From: a virus
Strand: one strand, 5' to 3'
IMG/VR virus record: IMGVR_UViG_3300010883_000006
Span: 1 to 64,000 of that record
Length of the DNA: 64,000 bases
Below, piece by piece: positions 4,071-41,932 of the stretch. Every line of letters begins with the position of its first letter. Within the stretch, counting starts at the first letter, position 1. The notes below the pieces were generated by a model. The model made no database searches, was not told where the DNA came from, and saw only the letters and a list, made by a program, of their open reading frames with translations. The position numbers were made by a program, and so were the translations under genes.

Positions 4071-5237
4071 TTATTGTGTCTTCTTACCATACCCCATTAA
4101 ATGTTTCATAAATGACATGTCTCTACCAACACTCTCATTTAGAGATGTGTTTTCATTTACCATAGAACATCCTAAAGCTTTTAAAGCTTTTTCCAATTCA
4201 CTTCCACCAAAATCACCAGGAATTCTTTCACATAAACCCTCATCATAAAGATTTTTATAAGCTTCCTTTACTTGTTTTTGTTCTTCTGGTGTAAGACCTT
4301 TACGACCTACTGGTTGTATTGCTGTAAAAAACGCACTCTCGTCTGTACCTACACCATCCATCGCGTCATGTATTTCTTTAGCGATTCTTTCAGCGTTTAT
4401 CCCTTGTACTTCATTTAGATTCATAGAATCATCACCACCACCACAATCACCTTCATGTACTTCACCACAACTTTCACAAACATCAGTTTCTTCAGAAACC
4501 TCTTTAGCTGCTTTTTTCATTGGTTCTTTTGTATCACCATCTTTATCTAAATCTAAGAAATCTGGTTTAGCCTTTTTATCTTCATCCATGTCTTCTTCAT
4601 ATGCTTCAGCTAATGAAGGTCTGTACCCTGGATTTGGGTGTTGTGTCCAATCGTTTGGTACAGCAAAGCCTTCTGGTCCTTTTAGTTTTTTATATTTTCT
4701 TTTCATTGTTTTTTGAATTCTTTCGCCAACTTTATTAGAAACTACATTACCTAGGTCACCCTCTTTGTTGCTTTGAGCATTACCTGTCTCTTGGGAACCA
4801 TCAAGATTTTTTTTAAATCTTTCACTAAATTCAGCTGATGGTTCAGTACCATATTCTAAATCTTCTAGTCCACCCCCTCTCCAATCGTCAATGTAGTCTT
4901 CTTGTTCAGTGTTATTTCTATACATAGGGGATTTGTAATCTGTTTTAGAGTTATTTTGGTTTGGAAACTCAGGATTACTATTATTTTTAATGTTTAAGTA
5001 ATCTTTAAGTTTAGTAGCCACAGCGTCCATAGCTGCTTTATTTTGAGCACCACCTGTTTTTAATACTTTATCTGTTACAGCTTTTCCTGGAAAGTTTTGA
5101 CTATCTTTTTTCATCTTTTCATTTAAACGAGACTTTAATTTAGACATTTTTTGTGCCTTCACAATCTTTGGTCTTGCAACTGACTCAAGAATCTTATCTA
5201 ATTCTCTAGAAGCTTTTTGTTTACTTAATTTTTTCAT
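4071..5237 (-). CDS. Probable virion-associated protein with annexin-like repeat
   Basis: 388 residues. The first 230 are low-complexity and basic, then acidic, typical of internal or scaffold-like phage proteins. At about 220-235 is a DLDKDGDTKEPMKK segment resembling an EF-hand calcium loop, and at about 247-260 a CESCGEVHEGDC cluster that could bind zinc. Residues about 272-357 look like a single annexin repeat: AMDGVGTDES, followed by EAYKNLYDEGLCE and a conserved helical end (SELEKALKAL). The spacing GVGT then 38 residues then Glu matches the annexin type II calcium-binding rule. The C terminus ends LNESVGRDMSFMKHLMGYGKK. The gene carries an ATATTTATA element 13 bases upstream. Function is inferred; membrane or calcium binding is possible. 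Confidence 0.7.
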   Translation of the reverse strand: MKKLSKQKASRELDKILESVARPKIVKAQKMSKLKSRLNEKMKKDSQNFPGKAVTDKVLKTGGAQNKAAMDAVATKLKDYLNIKNNSNPEFPNQNNSKTDYKSPMYRNNTEQEDYIDDWRGGGLEDLEYGTEPSAEFSERFKKNLDGSQETGNAQSNKEGDLGNVVSNKVGERIQKTMKRKYKKLKGPEGFAVPNDWTQHPNPGYRPSLAEAYEEDMDEDKKAKPDFLDLDKDGDTKEPMKKAAKEVSEETDVCESCGEVHEGDCGGGDDSMNLNEVQGINAERIAKEIHDAMDGVGTDESAFFTAIQPVGRKGLTPEEQKQVKEAYKNLYDEGLCERIPGDFGGSELEKALKALGCSMVNENTSLNESVGRDMSFMKHLMGYGKKTQ

Positions 5238-5250
5238 TTTTCTTTTTTTA

Positions 5251-5260
5251 TATAAATATA
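5251..5260 (-). promoter_or_regulatory. ATATTTATA element before the annexin-like gene
   Basis: Minus-strand TATATTTATATA 13 bases before ATG 5237, in the gap after the gene at 5267-6103. Confidence 0.5.
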
Positions 5261-5266
5261 CCTTAT

Positions 5267-6103
5267 TTACCCTTCGTACTTAGGTTTATTACCTTTCATA
5301 GTGTAAAGTTTACCTATCGGTAGGTTCATCTTTGCATTACCGACTAAATTAGTTATTGGGGACTTGTAGAAACCTTTTCTGATTATCTCCTCAATGTCTC
5401 TTTTACTGTATTTTTTTACCCTATCTTTAGCTTGTTTTCTTAGTTTTTTACCAGTTTCACTATCTTCTAATTCTTTTAGTATTATGTTTTTTAAATAGTT
5501 AACCGATTTACCAGTTTTTTTACATATGGTATTAATAGCCTCTTTTAATGTAGTGTCTTCGTAAAATTCTAAAGAATTAATGTCTCCTTGGTTACAATAT
5601 GGGAATTTTTTACATTTGTCTTTAACTTTAACAAAGGTAGAACCTGGCCCACCGTACTTAGGAAAGTTAGGGTCGTTAACGGCTCTCCAATTCTTTTTAT
5701 TCTTTGCCCAAATTGCTGGACCTTCAAATGAACCAGAAGACGATGCCCCTGTTACTTCATCCAACTCTTCTTCATCTTCTTGTTCTTGTTCTGAAAGTTT
5801 AGCAAATTCTTTAAGGTAATTTTTAGCCATATCTTCTATTGTTGAACTTTTTGTTTTAACTGCCTTTGTTTTCTTTGGTTTAAACTGACCTCCAAAAGGT
5901 GAACCGTATGCTCCAGATGAAGAAGCTCCAGTAACTTCTTCCACATCTTCTTCATCTTCCTTCATATCGGCAGATTGCATACCTTTATTAAAAGAATGCA
6001 AATCTTTCCCTTTTAAGCCTACAGATAAAGATTTAGCAACATCATCTAAACCATCTTTTGCTTGTTTTTTATATTTTTCTATTTGATTCGGTCCTGTATC
6101 CAT
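5267..6103 (-). CDS. Probable virion-associated protein with duplicated EVTGASSSG motif
   Basis: 278 residues, strongly charged. Two copies of EVTGASSSG (residues about 56-64 and 116-124), each after an acidic run, divide the protein into three parts, as in precursor proteins that are cut or bound at short motifs. The third part (125-278) has four cysteines (CKKFPYC and, further on, a lone Cys) and a helical, Lys-rich end (KLRKQAKDRVKKYSKRDIEE). Related GA(S/T)SSG motifs occur in the proteins at 7086-8000 and 62731-63558. It is one gene downstream of a small conserved-looking protein and upstream of the annexin-like one. A structural or core role is inference. Confidence 0.6.
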   Translation of the reverse strand: MDTGPNQIEKYKKQAKDGLDDVAKSLSVGLKGKDLHSFNKGMQSADMKEDEEDVEEVTGASSSGAYGSPFGGQFKPKKTKAVKTKSSTIEDMAKNYLKEFAKLSEQEQEDEEELDEVTGASSSGSFEGPAIWAKNKKNWRAVNDPNFPKYGGPGSTFVKVKDKCKKFPYCNQGDINSLEFYEDTTLKEAINTICKKTGKSVNYLKNIILKELEDSETGKKLRKQAKDRVKKYSKRDIEEIIRKGFYKSPITNLVGNAKMNLPIGKLYTMKGNKPKYEG

Positions 6104-32632: not shown

Positions 32633-35600
32633 TTATATCTTTTTAGGTTGTTTATAGTCTTTACCTAAGACCACACCTCTTGGTTTATTGGTTGCTCCCC
32701 CGTATGTTAGTACTTGGTTACCCAATTTATTTAAAAGGTCCCTTTTATTTACTTCAGGTTCTGCACAACCATATATGTCGTCACCATACCCTCCTCTAGG
32801 GGAATACGCACAACACCATGTGTAACACCCTTCCATAGAATTTGGATTTATTTCGATGTAATCATTATTACCACATTGACAATATTTTTTCCTTAAAGGT
32901 GAATCAATAGGTGTCGAGATGTTATAACTACTAGATTTAATATCCGCTACTTTACCGTCAATGATAAGAGAATTATCTTTAAAGTATATTGTTTTATCTT
33001 CATCTGTTTTACAAGATTGTTTTACCACTTCGAATGTACTTCCGTTGAAGGCTTCTCTTGGGTTAGGGGTAACACTATACGTTGTAATTTCTTCAGTAAT
33101 GGTAGGTGTATAGGCCTTATACACTACCTGGGTTCTACCATTTCCTTTTGTCCTTATTCTATTTTGTAATAGTATTGTGTTTTTAGGGTTAGAAAATGGG
33201 TCATTTATTTGGTTGTCATTTGAGATAGGTAAATTCCAATAAAGTGAATTACAATTACGTCCACCACAATCTATAGTCACCATATCATCAGACTGTAAAT
33301 AATAGTCGGTTATTCTAGGTACACTATTAACCTTATCAAAGTTTTCAATAGCTTTTACCCAGTGGTTAGTAGGTTTATTAGTTTTAACTAACATTAATGG
33401 ACCAACATAATCTTTACTAGGTAGGTCTAAGAAAGTTAACCTATTAAAACTACGTACATTTATTGGGTTTTGAGAATACTTTACTTGAGTGGTTTTAGGT
33501 CTATGGACTATTGATAGTGTTCCTTGTTCTTGTAAACTCATCATAGTACTACCGCTTGAGTATATGTTTTTTCTACTTTTTTCTACTGAGTTCCACACCA
33601 TTTGTTGTGTACTTGTTACTCCGGTAGAGGGGTAGTGTGTTATTCTGTACCATGGTTTGTACACAACTTCTTTATTAGTATATTTGTCTTCACCTAGAGA
33701 TAAATCTACCCTACTACTATATCCACTATTAATATTTTTAGTTGTAGAATGGAATTCATTCTCAAATTTTAACCTTACCACATCCCCTTTATTTAGGTTT
33801 ACAACATCACTATCTAAATAGACCTCAAATTTTCTAGTAAACACACTGGTAGTACCACTACAATTATAATAATTAGTTAGGTTGTCTGTAGGTAAAACAT
33901 CTAAAGTTAAATGTTCGTCTGCACTTGGGTGGGTTAATTCATTAAGTCCAACAGTAAATTCAGTCATGGTAACCGCAGATGTGGTACCAGAAATAGTTTT
34001 TTCTAAATAAACCCTAGCTTTAAAGTTTTGTATTCCTTCACCAGGATTGTAACCAAACGTTGGGTTGGTTTGTTTTCTATATTTTTTAGTATTTGTATAT
34101 TTTTCTGCAACTTGACCTTCAGAGTACTGTAGGTCTTGTCCTTCACCTTGTGGACCACCTTGATATATGATTGCGGAATTTATTAATTCTTTGTATTGCA
34201 AATCATTAGTTGGGAATGTTCCTTGAGTTAAATCCCTATACACATTTAAGTAGTTACAATACCCATTATCTTCATAATTAAAGTATAAGCACGCTTTATA
34301 TTGGAATCTGTACCCAGTTGTTTCTGGTACTTCATAATATAAGTAATCCTTTGGTCCTCTCGGTAGGTTAATTGGACCACCCTTGTGATTTAAAACTGGT
34401 GGTAATATCATAGGTCTTACCCCATTATAGTCTGAACCTATAAATTTAACAAGGGGACCGGAAACTAATTCTTCTAAACCATCAGTACCCATTACTTCAA
34501 TAGGTGGCATTAAAGTATCACCAGAGTAATGTCTGTAGTTTGGAACTACGGTTGTTCCCGTAAAGGCAGAGAATGCAAAATGTAAATCAAAAACTAAATC
34601 TGAAGATAAACAATTACCTCTACTATCCGTATACCCACTAAGGTTGGTATACTCGGTATACACATCCGTAGTTAACGAACCTAACTTAACTACCCTACCT
34701 GTTAGTGAGGTTGTGGCGTCCTTATATCTTGTTCTAAATGACGACCAAGAACTATACGTTGACCCAAAAATTTCTTTGTTAGGGGAATCTATAGGTGACC
34801 AACCATTTTTTTGTTTAGTTCTAGGTGTCTTTCTTATCTCAAACCTATTAAAAGTACCATTTTCATTATACACTACTTTAGTATCACCAAAAATATTAGG
34901 ACCTACTGACCTAGTAATCCAATCACTCAATCCACCATACGTATCTTTAACCGTTTTTGTTGTAGTGTTTATATTTTGACTATAATCTATATTTCCAGTA
35001 ATACCACCATTTCCACCATATTTTATTGTTGTTTCTACATTACCAATTTGTTTAGTTCTTAAATTTCTTTCGAAGGAGTTTCTTTGGGTGTCGTCTAAAA
35101 ATTGTAATACCATTTTACCACTACCTAGTTTATCACTAATTTCTTGTAACCATTTTAATTGGGTTACTTCATTACCATCATTATCGTTAAATGTACCATA
35201 ACCAATATTAAATGTATTTTTACCATCTGGCATTGACATTACTGGTGTATTATATTCTATTTGATTATTAGTGTTAAAGTTAGGGTAATTTTCTACAATA
35301 TAGACTTGTGATTGACTTATCTCATAATTTCTAGGTTGCAAATTTTGTCCTGGAGCCGTTTCTTCTAGTATGTTCTCAACTGTTAATTTAACTGTCCCAC
35401 CCATTGATTGTAAATTAGACATACTTACACTTTCCGGTATTGTTGTGGTAGATTCTGGTAAACTACGAGCACTAGGATTATACGGACAAGGTTGTGTAGT
35501 TGGCACTACTGGAGTAGATGGAAATGATGGTGGGGACCAAGATGGAACATTAGGGATTATTTCAAACCCTAGTGGTGTGGACCCGTTACAATCTAATTGT

Positions 35601-38600
35601 AATTCAATATTAAAAACATAATTCTCACCACCCCTAAAACCAGTAGAATTACTACTAATATCACTACCAGTATTATTGGTGAGAATTTTAGTTATAGAAT
35701 TATAACTATTTTTAAAAGCAAGTGCACCTCCATTTCCAGAAGGTGGAGCTAGTTCCCAATACCCATCGTCATCCGTATTGTTTAGCCCAGACATTGTTCC
35801 GGGCGTATCCCATTCTATACCACCTTTAGTTAAATAAGTACTAGAACCATTAGTACCACCAAATAATTTTTCTAATTTAAAAGGCCCTGCATCATTACTT
35901 GCCGCCATTTTTCGTGGTATTTGTATTGTAATTTGATTAACATTATCTGTCCAACCAACCAAACCGGCTATTTCCCCAGCACTAGGTGTACTACCTGGTG
36001 TCCCATAACTACCCGGTGTTATTTGTGTACCGTAAAGACTATTAGGTATGTGTAACAACAGCTTATTCGATACCGCTATACCTGTATTAGCGTGAGAACC
36101 TTGTACATAATAAACCTCTACCGATGTATTATCATCTATACTTGCCATTTCAAATGTAGCAGTTTCAACGTAGTCATTGGTTGAGGTACCACCTTTCACA
36201 TATGCGTGAGCATGTAACCTAAAATAATCAGTGAAACAACATATTGACATGACAGCTTTCCAACATTTGGAGAGGGATTCACCATGATAAGCATTACTAT
36301 TATTAAGACTTAAACCGTAATCCGGATTACTTCCAGTCATTTCAAAATTCCGTACCGCGTCTGGAATGTCACCCCAACCTATTTCAGTCATATCCAAATC
36401 AAGTACCACTTCACTATTTGAACTACAGTTACATCCAACTGGGTTATCTGGAACAACTGGAACAACTGGATTACACGGGTCTTCTGGGTCATTAGTTATT
36501 AACCTTAATTCTTCGTTTCTTCTAGGATTTGCTTGTCTAATAGATAGTAAATTTGCTACTGTTTCCGTACATGGCGTCCAACAACCATCCGTTGGTGTTG
36601 AGGCTTGCACGTAGTTCACACAAAAGTCATCATAACTAAAGATTTGTTGACCACAGTTATATGGGGGTGTGGTTGTGGATTGTGCTTGAAGTATCCATTG
36701 TACTCCTGCCGCAAAACCAGCAGTACCATCAGGACAACAAACAACATCACCTACTTCATATTCAAATTCTACATTTTCATCAATTGCGTCACATGCACAT
36801 GGGTGACTTGCTGGGTTAGTACCACCAAGACACGGAGAATATGTAGAATCAAAGCAATCTTGTCCACCAACATTAAATATACCATCTTTAAATGTTATAG
36901 GGTCAACAGTTATTGTTGTTCCGGTACCTCCAGGATTTTCAGGTATTTCAACTTCATTAAAATCATTACAATCATCGGCTTGTCTAAAATTATTTCCACC
37001 TAAAAATGGAATTCCTCCAGTACCACCAATCTTTTCCCAATATGTAATAGTTCCACCTTGTTGTGGGAAGTTTGTTAAGGTAGGTCCCTGTTGAGTCATT
37101 CTGTAACAATCTCTTCCATCCCATACAACCTCATCTCCAAGTGAATAGTAAGTATTAGCATTCCATTCTTCTCCTTCACAACCAAATGAACATGTTGGCA
37201 TACAGACTGTACATCCGGTAACTGAACCAGTAGCACCAGTACCTAAGAAGACATTTAAATCAGTAAGGAATTGTCCTTCACTAAAAAATGATGTATCATT
37301 TCCAGCCAATGGACCAGTATTACCTCCAGCGTTGGTGTATGTCGCTTGGTTGTTTACAATAGGCACACCATTTTGAGTTACGTTAATAAACGAACATGGA
37401 CTGGCAGGGTTGCCAGTAGAAACCCTAGTTCCTGATGGGCCTAAATTATGTTGCCATCCCCAACCTAAATTTTCTAAACCTGAATCCAAGCCACTACAAT
37501 TCATTTCCAATGTCCCTAACTCTATACTTGTCGTAGCGGTAAGAACGTTTGGTCCTAAATCAGGAGCTAAACCAGCATCCGACACATAAACTTTATAAGT
37601 TGTATCAGCAGTGTAAAAACACATAGGTGGATTCTGACACCTTAATTGACTGGCATTACTAGTTATACCAGTATAATTTATTTTAAGATTTTCTATAGCG
37701 GTGTTAAAGTTGTCAGTATGAACGGTACCAGTTGCTGGGTCACCATTTGTATCACAACTATATTCAAAAATACCGGAAGATTCATCTATTACTATTTCGG
37801 GGGTTCCTGGTCCCCAAGTAGCTCCACTTATAAAACAAGTAGTTGCTGTGTACCCTGTAACCGTTGATGTTATTGTTGATGTTACGGTAATTGCACTGGT
37901 TGCAGCGTCCGGATACATTGATTTGTACGCTGTAAGACCCGAATATGGGTTATATTTTGTCATGGCAGACATACTTCCACCTAATGAGTCTATTGTTGGG
38001 TTTATCTTTAAATTTTCTATATTTACAGTATTTCTTTCCATAGCTCCGTACACATGGAGTGGGAAGTTTGTTCTAGCTGCATTACTATCTCTAACAATAG
38101 GATACACAAACCCCCTGAATGAGTCGTAGTTGGTTTGAACGTGTCTAAATGTGTAGAAATCAGCGGAGTAGGGTATTGTTGGTTGTATTACATTTCCACC
38201 AGCACCATTAAGTTGACCACCCTGTGGGTATACGTTCCCTCCTGTAGATGGGAATCCACCACCTAATCCATCACCACTACCCCCAGCATTGTTTCCCGCA
38301 CCTGCATTCGGGAAGTTAATATTCCATGGGTTACCAAAAGTATTTGGGTATCCCGCAATCTCCATTGAGTATGGTGGACACCCTTGGTTTGTAATTTGTA
38401 AACTAATATTATTTCCATTGTTGCCAGACCTACCAGAATTCCAGTCTTGAACATCACCGGTTGGTGTGTTAGCAATAAAACCAAGTGCAGCATTAGCGAT
38501 ACCTCTACATGGACCTGGTCCACTTGGACCTATTAAATTTAACCCCCCATGGTATTGGAATTCTGTTTCATCTTGTAACATAACCACCAAAACATCCTTA

Positions 38601-41600
38601 CTTCCACCAGTCCAACCTACTTGTCCACCAGTAGAACCGTATGATTGTTGGTAGTCAGTTATATTGTTTATCACCATTGGTTCTCCGTACGGTGCTGAAT
38701 TTGGATTCGGTAGTTCACTGAATCCAGTCCATGTAGCATCTTTATTCCAAGCAATCCCATCATTTGTATTATTCCATACTCTACATGGCATTTGTCCTGT
38801 CCAAGGATATTGAGCGGCACATAACCACCTTTCTCCGTTATTAACAATATGGTATAGATTACCTGTCCAATTGTCGAAACCTGCAACCCATGATTGCAGG
38901 GTAGCCTTTGCGTTATTTGCAACAGTAATACCCATAGAGGTACTATCATAATAAACAAATATGTCGGTATCAGCACCAACAGTTGTTGTTCTTTCCACCT
39001 GCATATCTAAACAAGTATCCAATGAAAACTGATGTGGGTCTGGACCATTTACGTAATTCCACATATCTATTCCATTGTCACAAGGACCTTGGACTATTAT
39101 GGTTTTAGGGTTATCTATAAATGGTAAATTTGGGTCTGTAGGTGTGTCATCATGAACATACCAAGTTAAAGTATTATTAGGGTCACCTACATCTTGTGTA
39201 ATTCCACTTAATATAGTCACTACATCTTCTATCCATGCGTCAGTACTAGGTATGTCAGTTAAAGTAGTACTAGAATAATAAATCCCACCATTTGGACTTC
39301 CCTCATACACTGTACCACCTAAAGTTAACCTATTAGACCAAGTTGCTCCACTAAACACAACACCATTACATTGTAAAAACCCATCAACTATTTGTTGGTT
39401 AAAGTTTGGTCCTGTACATTCTATAAATGAACCAAAACATTCTAAGTCGTCACATAAAGGCCCATGTTTATACGAGTATTTGTATCTATGAAATTCTGAA
39501 TTTTCATATCTTGTACCTCCTTGCCATATAGTAGTTGCTGGTATAAATTGTTCTACCAGTCTCATCCAATAATCACCAATTCCCTCAGCATAGTCAATCA
39601 TTTTTTGGTAGGTGTACTTATTACTAGGTATCCCACAAGCTACATCACTTTCAAGATAATCCAAATAAACTTTTAGTAGTGTTGGGTAACCACCAGCATG
39701 TCCATCATCTATTGTTTGTCTATTTTTTACATTAATTAATATTTTCCAAAATTGGTCCGCAAATTCTACAAATGGCATTTTAGAAGCATCTATCTGAATT
39801 TGTGTCCAGTCTGGCCCCCCTATATTTGGGTATGGGGCACTTAAAGCATCTTTACCAAAAGGACATCCAAATTTATTAGATAAGTTCCACACATCCCAGG
39901 TTAGACCTTGTCCAACATTTAAAAATAAATCAACATTTTTTACATTAAGAACTAATCTTTCATCATCGGTAAAATAACGAGTCCCTCTATCTCTAAAACT
40001 ATAAAGTCTTTTACTTTTTTCATTTTCCTTATATACCCAAGATTTTTTATTGTCTTTTGTTCTAGTTATATCAAACCCTAAATTTGTATCAGGAAACTTC
40101 CTATATAGATTTAAATAAGGTTCACCGTATGTGAACTTATTTAATTTTGTTTTAACACTAGGGGTATTACCAGTAAAAACAGAACTTTCAATATCCACCA
40201 TTTCTTTTCCTCGGTGTTCAACAGTTTCTTCAAACCATCCAGCTCCTGCTTGGAAGAACCCGTCTTTATTAAATGTCGGAGCTAACGGATACCCTTCTGA
40301 GTTAACTGGGAATTGTGCTCTAGTAGCTGTAGTATCTACACTAACTAATTCTGTTCCAAAAGTATAACCTGTAACAATAACTGGTGGGAAGGTAGGTGTT
40401 GAGGCTGAAAATAATTGGTCTTTAACAACTATTTCTTCGTAGTAAGTACCTCCAGATATAACTGCTATCCTTTGGTTAAACTTATTCATGTCTATTTTTT
40501 GTCCCGCAACATACACGTGTTCATTAAACTCAATTAGTGCTTCAGGGGCACCCACAAACCTCATTAAAAATTCTATTGCTTTTCTAGTACCTTTAGATTT
40601 AAAAAGGTAAGCAGTGTTAACTAATAACCTCCTATAAAGTTCACTATTTAATGCTGTAGGAGTTGGGGATTGTGCTTTACCAGAATATTCAGATTTACCT
40701 CTTTTTAAGACTGACTCTAAAAACCCTTCTGTTTCAATAGCTGAAGGTGTTTTCCAACCTAATGTATGTGCAAAGTTTTTTAATAGTTCATTAGGAACAT
40801 TGTTAGTAGAATCATACGTTACATTGGTCATGTAAGCTAATCCTTCAATATATGTTTTAATACTATCAAAACTTCTACCATATATTTTCAATATTTGGTC
40901 CACCTTTTCATCTTCAGTGTCAAATTCTTTAAAAGCAGCAGTTGTTAAAAATCTAGAAACTAAGTTTGTTTTATACGCATCAAAATTATCAGCTATTTCC
41001 AATAATTTACCTAAATAAACATTAAATGAAGCTCCTGTAATGACTAAATTCCAATTATTACTGGATGGCCAAGTAAGTGAAGTTGTATTTTGCACAAATT
41101 TCCCACTGTCGGTCTGTGTTGGTATGTCAAAATTAGCTGTATATATCGGGGTTGTGTCTCTTTCTATAATAAACTTTTCAACATCTTCTAAGTTATCGAA
41201 TATTTCTTCAGTTTCTTTTGTATTAGGTTTTATAAAGAAGTTTTCTGTTGTTGTGGTTTGACCAGTAAATGGATTTCCGTACACTTCAACTGATAACGTA
41301 TCTGTTACAGTGTTACCAGTAGTTGGTGACATGAAGGTTATTGGGTACTCTTCTTCTCGTATAAAAAGTGAATATTTGTTATAAAATTGTGTAAAATTTC
41401 TAACAGGGTTTAATTCTTTATCTGTATATATTTTACCTACCTTTGTAAAATCAATTCCAAAAGGGTTATGAACATTTAATAACTCTAAATTAAGAGTAGT
41501 TTCATTTTCTATAGCATCAAAAACTATATTTGTGGCAGTATTACCAGTTAAAAAATTTTTTCTTAGTTTGGTAAATACTAGTGCAGCTGGGAAGTTCTTA

Positions 41601-41932
41601 ATTACGTTTTGTACTGCTACCCTTAGTCTGTCTCGTAAAGACCCATATAAAACAAAATTACTAACCTTACTTCTATCGTAATTTATAAACACCTCCAAAC
41701 TATTAGAGGATACTTTTCTAGCCTCTTCTGTTGAGGTAAAATTAAGTGTAGATAAGGTTATAGGTTCTGAAAAGTTACCTAAAGAAAATTCCCTACTGTC
41801 TTTAGCCCTAACTCCGGAATTTATGCCAAAATTACCTAGTGTAAATTGTGAGGAGCCATCAGTAAACTGTCTACCTACTAAGTTATCTCCAAAGGTATCA
41901 CTACCTTTTCCTATGTTGTTACCGTTAGCCAT
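32633..41932 (-). CDS. Giant baseplate/tail protein (3099 aa)
   Basis: One open frame of 9.3 kb. The N-terminal 850 residues look like an assembly-type region (LEVFINYDRSKVSNFVLYGS, then a helical-beta core, then LVEQFIPATTIWQGGTRYEN). Residues about 985-1340 are the segment shared with the protein at 23085-26462 (FVYYDSTSMGITVANNAKAT, then VYGAMERNTVNIENLKINPT). Residues about 1600-1860 are cysteine-rich (VVCCPDGTAGFAAG). The C-terminal 1200 residues are beta-rich, with a final Cys cluster (KKYCQCGNNDYIEINP ... WCCAYSPRGG). A single chain of this size in the baseplate block suggests a scaffold linking wedges to fibres. No enzyme motif is seen. Same-strand smaller frames inside it are shadows. 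Confidence 0.75.
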   Translation of the reverse strand: MANGNNIGKGSDTFGDNLVGRQFTDGSSQFTLGNFGINSGVRAKDSREFSLGNFSEPITLSTLNFTSTEEARKVSSNSLEVFINYDRSKVSNFVLYGSLRDRLRVAVQNVIKNFPAALVFTKLRKNFLTGNTATNIVFDAIENETTLNLELLNVHNPFGIDFTKVGKIYTDKELNPVRNFTQFYNKYSLFIREEEYPITFMSPTTGNTVTDTLSVEVYGNPFTGQTTTTENFFIKPNTKETEEIFDNLEDVEKFIIERDTTPIYTANFDIPTQTDSGKFVQNTTSLTWPSSNNWNLVITGASFNVYLGKLLEIADNFDAYKTNLVSRFLTTAAFKEFDTEDEKVDQILKIYGRSFDSIKTYIEGLAYMTNVTYDSTNNVPNELLKNFAHTLGWKTPSAIETEGFLESVLKRGKSEYSGKAQSPTPTALNSELYRRLLVNTAYLFKSKGTRKAIEFLMRFVGAPEALIEFNEHVYVAGQKIDMNKFNQRIAVISGGTYYEEIVVKDQLFSASTPTFPPVIVTGYTFGTELVSVDTTATRAQFPVNSEGYPLAPTFNKDGFFQAGAGWFEETVEHRGKEMVDIESSVFTGNTPSVKTKLNKFTYGEPYLNLYRKFPDTNLGFDITRTKDNKKSWVYKENEKSKRLYSFRDRGTRYFTDDERLVLNVKNVDLFLNVGQGLTWDVWNLSNKFGCPFGKDALSAPYPNIGGPDWTQIQIDASKMPFVEFADQFWKILINVKNRQTIDDGHAGGYPTLLKVYLDYLESDVACGIPSNKYTYQKMIDYAEGIGDYWMRLVEQFIPATTIWQGGTRYENSEFHRYKYSYKHGPLCDDLECFGSFIECTGPNFNQQIVDGFLQCNGVVFSGATWSNRLTLGGTVYEGSPNGGIYYSSTTLTDIPSTDAWIEDVVTILSGITQDVGDPNNTLTWYVHDDTPTDPNLPFIDNPKTIIVQGPCDNGIDMWNYVNGPDPHQFSLDTCLDMQVERTTTVGADTDIFVYYDSTSMGITVANNAKATLQSWVAGFDNWTGNLYHIVNNGERWLCAAQYPWTGQMPCRVWNNTNDGIAWNKDATWTGFSELPNPNSAPYGEPMVINNITDYQQSYGSTGGQVGWTGGSKDVLVVMLQDETEFQYHGGLNLIGPSGPGPCRGIANAALGFIANTPTGDVQDWNSGRSGNNGNNISLQITNQGCPPYSMEIAGYPNTFGNPWNINFPNAGAGNNAGGSGDGLGGGFPSTGGNVYPQGGQLNGAGGNVIQPTIPYSADFYTFRHVQTNYDSFRGFVYPIVRDSNAARTNFPLHVYGAMERNTVNIENLKINPTIDSLGGSMSAMTKYNPYSGLTAYKSMYPDAATSAITVTSTITSTVTGYTATTCFISGATWGPGTPEIVIDESSGIFEYSCDTNGDPATGTVHTDNFNTAIENLKINYTGITSNASQLRCQNPPMCFYTADTTYKVYVSDAGLAPDLGPNVLTATTSIELGTLEMNCSGLDSGLENLGWGWQHNLGPSGTRVSTGNPASPCSFINVTQNGVPIVNNQATYTNAGGNTGPLAGNDTSFFSEGQFLTDLNVFLGTGATGSVTGCTVCMPTCSFGCEGEEWNANTYYSLGDEVVWDGRDCYRMTQQGPTLTNFPQQGGTITYWEKIGGTGGIPFLGGNNFRQADDCNDFNEVEIPENPGGTGTTITVDPITFKDGIFNVGGQDCFDSTYSPCLGGTNPASHPCACDAIDENVEFEYEVGDVVCCPDGTAGFAAGVQWILQAQSTTTPPYNCGQQIFSYDDFCVNYVQASTPTDGCWTPCTETVANLLSIRQANPRRNEELRLITNDPEDPCNPVVPVVPDNPVGCNCSSNSEVVLDLDMTEIGWGDIPDAVRNFEMTGSNPDYGLSLNNSNAYHGESLSKCWKAVMSICCFTDYFRLHAHAYVKGGTSTNDYVETATFEMASIDDNTSVEVYYVQGSHANTGIAVSNKLLLHIPNSLYGTQITPGSYGTPGSTPSAGEIAGLVGWTDNVNQITIQIPRKMAASNDAGPFKLEKLFGGTNGSSTYLTKGGIEWDTPGTMSGLNNTDDDGYWELAPPSGNGGALAFKNSYNSITKILTNNTGSDISSNSTGFRGGENYVFNIELQLDCNGSTPLGFEIIPNVPSWSPPSFPSTPVVPTTQPCPYNPSARSLPESTTTIPESVSMSNLQSMGGTVKLTVENILEETAPGQNLQPRNYEISQSQVYIVENYPNFNTNNQIEYNTPVMSMPDGKNTFNIGYGTFNDNDGNEVTQLKWLQEISDKLGSGKMVLQFLDDTQRNSFERNLRTKQIGNVETTIKYGGNGGITGNIDYSQNINTTTKTVKDTYGGLSDWITRSVGPNIFGDTKVVYNENGTFNRFEIRKTPRTKQKNGWSPIDSPNKEIFGSTYSSWSSFRTRYKDATTSLTGRVVKLGSLTTDVYTEYTNLSGYTDSRGNCLSSDLVFDLHFAFSAFTGTTVVPNYRHYSGDTLMPPIEVMGTDGLEELVSGPLVKFIGSDYNGVRPMILPPVLNHKGGPINLPRGPKDYLYYEVPETTGYRFQYKACLYFNYEDNGYCNYLNVYRDLTQGTFPTNDLQYKELINSAIIYQGGPQGEGQDLQYSEGQVAEKYTNTKKYRKQTNPTFGYNPGEGIQNFKARVYLEKTISGTTSAVTMTEFTVGLNELTHPSADEHLTLDVLPTDNLTNYYNCSGTTSVFTRKFEVYLDSDVVNLNKGDVVRLKFENEFHSTTKNINSGYSSRVDLSLGEDKYTNKEVVYKPWYRITHYPSTGVTSTQQMVWNSVEKSRKNIYSSGSTMMSLQEQGTLSIVHRPKTTQVKYSQNPINVRSFNRLTFLDLPSKDYVGPLMLVKTNKPTNHWVKAIENFDKVNSVPRITDYYLQSDDMVTIDCGGRNCNSLYWNLPISNDNQINDPFSNPKNTILLQNRIRTKGNGRTQVVYKAYTPTITEEITTYSVTPNPREAFNGSTFEVVKQSCKTDEDKTIYFKDNSLIIDGKVADIKSSSYNISTPIDSPLRKKYCQCGNNDYIEINPNSMEGCYTWCCAYSPRGGYGDDIYGCAEPEVNKRDLLNKLGNQVLTYGGATNKPRGVVLGKDYKQPKKI

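Follow-up and report, generated by a model that had tools for sequence, protein, structure and literature searches.

Annexins have been seen as a eukaryotic protein family with a scattering of members in bacteria, and they normally bind membranes through several Ca2+ sites. In the eukaryotic proteins (PF00191), such as annexin A5 and A6, the repeat occurs four or eight times. A survey of bacterial annexins, whose single-domain forms include that of Cytophaga hutchinsonii, recorded none in viruses (Kodavali et al. 2014, PMC3894181), and the literature searched, whose coverage was incomplete, yielded no later account of annexins in phages. Annexin domains are also present on toxins of phage-tail-like injection systems (PVC/eCIS), where they have been proposed to aid in breaching the target membrane (Zhang et al. 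2012, PMC3482391). In bacteriophage T4, internal proteins carry a short N-terminal capsid-targeting sequence that directs them into the prohead and is cleaved off by gp21, and some of these proteins are injected (PMC9958956).

P0001, the phage protein described here, resembles eukaryotic annexins in its repeat fold, its GxGTD AB loop and its acidic DE-turn ligand, but it has one repeat rather than four or eight, with a four-residue insert between helices B and C, and this repeat is embedded in a phage protein. The single-domain form is common to P0001 and some bacterial annexins; unlike the latter, the P0001 repeat is a phage cassette accompanied by a phage core and tail. The PVC/eCIS toxins likewise carry a single annexin, as an accessory on the cargo of a phage-tail-like injection machine. 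In contrast to these toxins, P0001 belongs to a phage and has no toxin domain, and no match to eCIS_core (PF13699) was found in it.

The window, a stretch of 64,000 nucleotides, comprises bases 1-64000 of a 106,991-base IMG/VR virus record. This record is a fragment of a T4-like myovirus, as marked by its genes for baseplate wedge proteins, SbcC/SbcD-like nucleases, a UvsX-like recombinase, a DnaB-like helicase and a sigma factor. P0001, 388 residues long, belongs to a modular protein family whose syntenic members occur in related phages, and it is encoded on the minus strand at 4071..5237, including the stop codon. Its gene lies outside any head cluster in the record, with an amidase-like ORF on one side and small membrane ORFs on the other, and no membrane segment was found in P0001 itself. 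The adjoining gene (5267-6103, minus strand) contains repeated EVTGASSSG, and the related phage G010 keeps EATTASSSGQYSGPQVWAKD in the same gene order. Elsewhere in the window, an ORF of 3099 residues (32633-41932, minus strand) lies within a structural-looking region.

Residues 279-360 of P0001 (4158..4403, minus strand) almost certainly form a genuine single five-helix annexin repeat. PF00191 matched residues 286-355 of the full-length protein at E = 3.8e-5 and 24.1 bits, which is 0.9 bits under the curated cut-off of 25 bits, while the excised domain scored 29.1 bits and exceeded it. Annexin VI and other annexins were retrieved by phmmer from PDB sequences at E-values down to 3.6e-13, a value that sums several repeats. 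Based on an alignment with 19 phage relatives, AlphaFold2 modelled residues 271-362 with a pLDDT of 88.1 and a pTM of 0.79, placing helices at 282-293, 300-307, 317-331, 335-342 and 345-354. All 50 matches listed by Foldseek against the PDB were annexins, some of them crystallisation fusions, with a probability of 1.00; annexin V superposed on the model with a TM-score of about 0.72 and an rmsd of 1.4 Å. A Foldseek search of the viral library gave nothing beyond weak matches. When a profile was built from 16 phage repeats, P0001 being left out, it reached solved annexins in the PDB at E = 3.4e-69.

Since the relatives had been gathered by a pattern containing the GxGTD loop, the searches were repeated without that loop. 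The P0001 residues past GVGTDE, used alone, matched an annexin at 4.8e-6, and a motif-free profile of the 16 phage repeats retrieved annexins down to 6.5e-22, all 60 of the 60 best-scoring PDB sequences listed being annexins. The homology is therefore no artefact of motif selection. A chance or convergent likeness without homology could appeal to the 0.9-bit shortfall of the full-length Pfam score, but the domain score, the profile, the fold and the motif-free searches all oppose it; this reading is already refuted, and we give it a negligible probability. An earlier note, made from the letters of the sequence, had read a single annexin repeat in a phage protein, had found the helix order fitting and had proposed Pfam and structure checks; the domain score, the predicted five-helix bundle and the annexin matches bear it out. 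P0001 has only this one repeat and no other was found in the 107-kb record, so that a eukaryotic-type core of four or eight repeats is not present. The nearest sequences by BLAST were repeats of bacterial array proteins, with 36-43% identity.

Helices A and B of the repeat are joined by MDGVGTD (residues 293-299), in agreement with the type II loop pattern [MG]-x-G-x-G-T, and the AB loop GVGTDE (residues 295-300; 4338..4355, minus strand) corresponds to the backbone-ligand half of a type II Ca2+ site. Alignment of 20 phage repeats and alignment with annexin VI identify D342, which closes helix D (4212..4214, minus strand), as the residue homologous to the acidic DE-turn ligand of annexins. This column is acidic (D or E) in all 20 aligned phage repeats, and it played no part in selecting them. 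The earlier note had judged the type II motif intact and had named as ligand a Glu 38 residues after GVGT. That residue, E337 (4227..4229, minus strand), is indeed there and alone satisfies the literal spacing rule of 38-40 residues, but the alignment and the AlphaFold2 model place it within helix D as a non-homologous residue, and no more than 11 of the 20 repeats have an acidic residue in its column. D342 lies 43 residues past T298, a spacing explained by four extra residues (GRKG) that separate helix B from helix C; the commonest loop-to-ligand spacing among the 20 phage repeats is 39. With D342 as its acidic ligand, the type II site of P0001 is intact by sequence and constitutes a putative Ca2+-binding site.

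The wider family was sampled with the nearby sigma factor as query, which returned 51 related loci, about 24 of them with a P0001 homologue in the same place. Its members share a conserved core (residues 31-207 of P0001; 4617..5147, minus strand), 62.6% identical in L240, the closest relative. At the other end, the family alignment delimits LNE and the C-terminal tail SVGRDMSFMKHLMGYGKKTQ (residues 366-388; 4074..4142, minus strand), in which [LIV]xE and LM.Y...TQ are conserved in 24 of 24 members. The contents of the intervening region (residues about 210-363; 4149..4610, minus strand) differ from phage to phage. In G010 (297,623 bases, with conserved neighbour genes) and L274 the region is missing, and the core joins the tail directly. 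The slot is filled in L240 by a PG_binding_1 domain (5.5e-8), and in P0001 by a DxDxDG motif, a Cys motif and the annexin repeat. The repeat stands ahead of the core in L286, behind a Gly-rich membrane-like segment, and other members have EF-hand, dockerin or zinc-ribbon modules N-terminal to the core. In this modular protein of large T4-like phages the annexin repeat is a cassette that can be exchanged, and it is accessory, since the family protein of most relatives lacks it. Separate gains of the repeat by P0001 and L286 are not claimed; the tree, over 70 columns, does not resolve the question, and the AU test retains a single origin (p = 0.54).

The conserved core gave no usable AlphaFold model (pLDDT 52.5) and no PHROG match. 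The DxDxDG motif of the slot, DLDKDGDTKEPM (residues 229-240; 4518..4553, minus strand), is calcium-loop-like and is shared with phrog_24078. It lacks the position-12 Glu, the last acidic ligand, and P0001 thus has no complete 12-residue EF loop; no EF-hand family was among its domain matches, and 7 of 24 relatives gave such matches. The zinc-knuckle-like Cys motif, CESCGEVHEGDC (residues 254-265; 4443..4478, minus strand), recurs in a protein of L001 encoded beside a prohead protease gene. An IMG/VR search with the whole of P0001 returned one locus, with which the Cys motif is the only common feature. In L001, an acidic protein (4652-5773) lies between the prohead protease and capsid-like genes, and its VCEQCGGVHEGVC corresponds to VCESCGEVHEGDC of P0001.

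The pattern A-M-x-G-x-G-T-D-[DE] matched 116 stretches in IMG/VR, and inspection of the frames by eye identified 37 of these as loci with an annexin-like repeat, which were then aligned. PF00191 was detected at E <= 0.1 in 19 of 20 aligned repeats, P0001 included, the best value being 4.2e-9. More than one repeat was present in several records (two each in G004, G006 and G010, three in G065). Predicted relatives of the P0001 repeat are carried by dozens of other phages and are widespread in IMG/VR; a phage-metagenome search had been proposed in the earlier note. This wide spread, together with the exchangeable nature of the cassette, is the main point of our analysis and was missed in that note. 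No annexin homologue reached significance in 50,697 annotated phage records queried with P0001 and three phage annexin domains; Synechococcus phages in this set match P0001 through the DxDxDG motif only.

Short TM-anchored annexin ORFs are present in other phages. One locus (L317; G065:26500-30000) contains three near-tandem annexin ORFs, each with an N-terminal membrane-like segment, and a fourth ORF built alike without annexin. Short single-annexin-repeat proteins also occur in Bacteroidota genomes (L123, L131, L151, L189, L211 and L231), several with an N-terminal membrane segment; they resemble the phage proteins of L050, L013 and L047, and their genes may be prophage genes. Among the matches listed, proteins in which the annexin repeat occurs two to eight times (L127, L134, L136, L140, L169, L223 and others) came from bacteria of the Myxococcota, Chloroflexota, Deinococcota and other groups, and some of these proteins have an eCIS_core domain. 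The bacterial range found here exceeds the seventeen species listed in 2014.

A score matrix made from the family C-tails only was used to scan the 2338 proteins (528,344 residues) of the loci. Outside the family it scored highest on nine stand-alone phage annexin proteins, in each case at the N-terminus, as in EELNRIKNLMGYDRSKT compared with the family tail EEFNRMKNLMGYNKKT. The next matches, separated from these by a clear gap, lay within a small downstream gene and, in an unrelated enzyme-like protein from the same phage, at the N-terminus. When the N-terminal 28 residues of annexin proteins were compared with those of their neighbours, a score of >= 32 was reached in 12 of 373 pairs and in none of 1475 internal windows, in a test that takes in related proteins. 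The N-terminal tag of the annexin protein recurs on unrelated neighbours in five loci (L009, L058, L010, L036 and L107), and in L009 MKRIVRLTESDLARIVRRVI.E is present on three genes. On contig G000 (L237/L238), ORFs at 81193-81999, 82056-82709 and 83436-84095 have at the N-terminus peptides resembling MLNEEIKRIKSLM and MRELIKKIL.E.FLSE, of which the second is shared by two of the ORFs. By eye, these ORFs read as deoxyribose-phosphate aldolase, superoxide dismutase and kinase; they are possibly virion cargo enzymes.

T4 internal head proteins (Mullaney and Black 1996, cited in PMC9958956) offer a parallel, with a short terminal peptide on otherwise unrelated proteins. In P0001 a [LIV]xE site, a candidate for cleavage, lies beside the peptide, and a gp21-type protease occurs in related phages. 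Of 27 records that are related or bear annexin, 10 gave a match to the protease (PF03420), the near relative G010 and two family members, G024 and G025, being among them; none was found in the 107-kb record of the window, a fragment without head genes. The [LIV]xE site, invariant in the family against a background of 15%, amounts to one inherited column. Compared with the T4 proteins, the P0001 tag differs in being C-terminal, the tags of other phage annexin proteins being N-terminal, and packaging and cleavage are putative. No N-terminal targeting peptide of about 10 residues was found in P0001, where the shared peptide is C-terminal. We infer that the terminal tags may be packaging signals.

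Membrane-like segments occur in 15 of 32 phage annexin proteins and in 37 of 264 neighbours (Fisher p = 4e-5, an optimistic value because many of the compared annexin proteins are relatives). PG_binding_1 lies on the same chain as annexin in L087 and L316. Candidate PG_binding domains in L040, L028, L014 and L022 scored below threshold, and peptidoglycan binding is therefore claimed for L087, L316 and L240 only. With a peptidoglycan-binding domain in the same slot or chain and an excess of membrane-like segments, the recurrent partners of phage annexin repeats suggest a connection with the cell envelope. Annexin is found together with eCIS_core in the bacterial proteins L223 and L136.

The idea that P0001 is a virion protein making membrane contact, raised in the earlier note, is plausible and gains indirect support from the shared tags, the prohead protease in relatives, the exchange with a peptidoglycan-binding domain and the enrichment of membrane segments. 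The best single account, which we put forward tentatively and at somewhat less than an even chance, is that of a virion-packaged, ejected protein with an exchangeable envelope-docking module. The terminal peptide would package P0001 into the virion, from which the protein would be delivered to the cell along with the DNA. The cassette, which is annexin in P0001, a peptidoglycan-binding domain in L240 and missing in others, would then dock it to the host envelope; the annexin cassette would do so on acidic phospholipid in the presence of Ca2+. Several observations weaken this account. The P0001 tag lies at the C-terminus and the capsid-targeting sequences of T4 at the N-terminus, no prohead protease was found in the fragment that contains the window, and P0001 lacks a membrane segment. 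With only one repeat there is one Ca2+ site where annexins normally use several, the core could not be folded by prediction, and in most relatives the family protein works without annexin.

Alternatively, the annexin fold could serve as a protein-protein interaction module for a virion or scaffold partner, with bound Ca2+ only stabilising the fold and no membrane contact. A single repeat that is exchangeable or missing in relatives would suit such a role, as would the other small interaction modules (EF-hand, dockerin, zinc ribbon) on the same protein in relatives. Against it stand the Ca2+ ligand column, acidic in every phage repeat though unused in selection, the peptidoglycan-binding domain in the same slot of L240 and the membrane segments in which other phage annexin proteins are enriched, and we consider it rather unlikely. 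Another possibility is that P0001 is a prohead structural or scaffold protein, kept or cleaved in the capsid, whose annexin and DxDxDG motif sense or store Ca2+ for capsid stability. The CxxCGxVHEGxC motif common to the L001 protein between protease and capsid genes, the conserved [LIV]xE ahead of the tail (24/24), and the DxDxDG motif with the EF-hand and dockerin loops of relatives point in this direction. However, the peptidoglycan-binding cassette of L240 would make little sense in a capsid that has no contact with the cell wall, the P0001 gene lies outside a head cluster here, and the core is unlike known scaffold families and has no PHROG, which makes a capsid role distinctly unlikely.

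An intracellular, non-virion protein acting on the host inner membrane, in lysis timing, superinfection exclusion or membrane remodelling, appears more improbable still. The flanking amidase-like and small membrane ORFs, and the short TM-anchored annexin ORFs known in other phages here, would fit it; yet tags common to unrelated proteins suit sorting better than a cytoplasmic role, and for a protein that lacks a signal peptide, binding to peptidoglycan suggests that it arrives from outside. We retain, at the strength given above, the packaged and ejected protein with an envelope-docking cassette. In a broader and more doubtful form, large T4-like phages would package annexin-module proteins by terminal tags, swap these modules with peptidoglycan-binding ones, and, once the proteins are ejected, use them for docking or passage at the host membrane. 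Annexin repeats might then recur as an accessory in contractile injection machines, both phage tails and eCIS.

The existence of a sizeable phage annexin population alters the known distribution of annexins and offers a carrier for their patchy bacterial occurrence. Additionally, what a single repeat is capable of can conveniently be studied in this small phage protein, which has only the one. Protein-membrane contacts during phage entry are poorly known, and if the tagged proteins are ejected, Ca2+-dependent lipid binding would have a testable role in this process.
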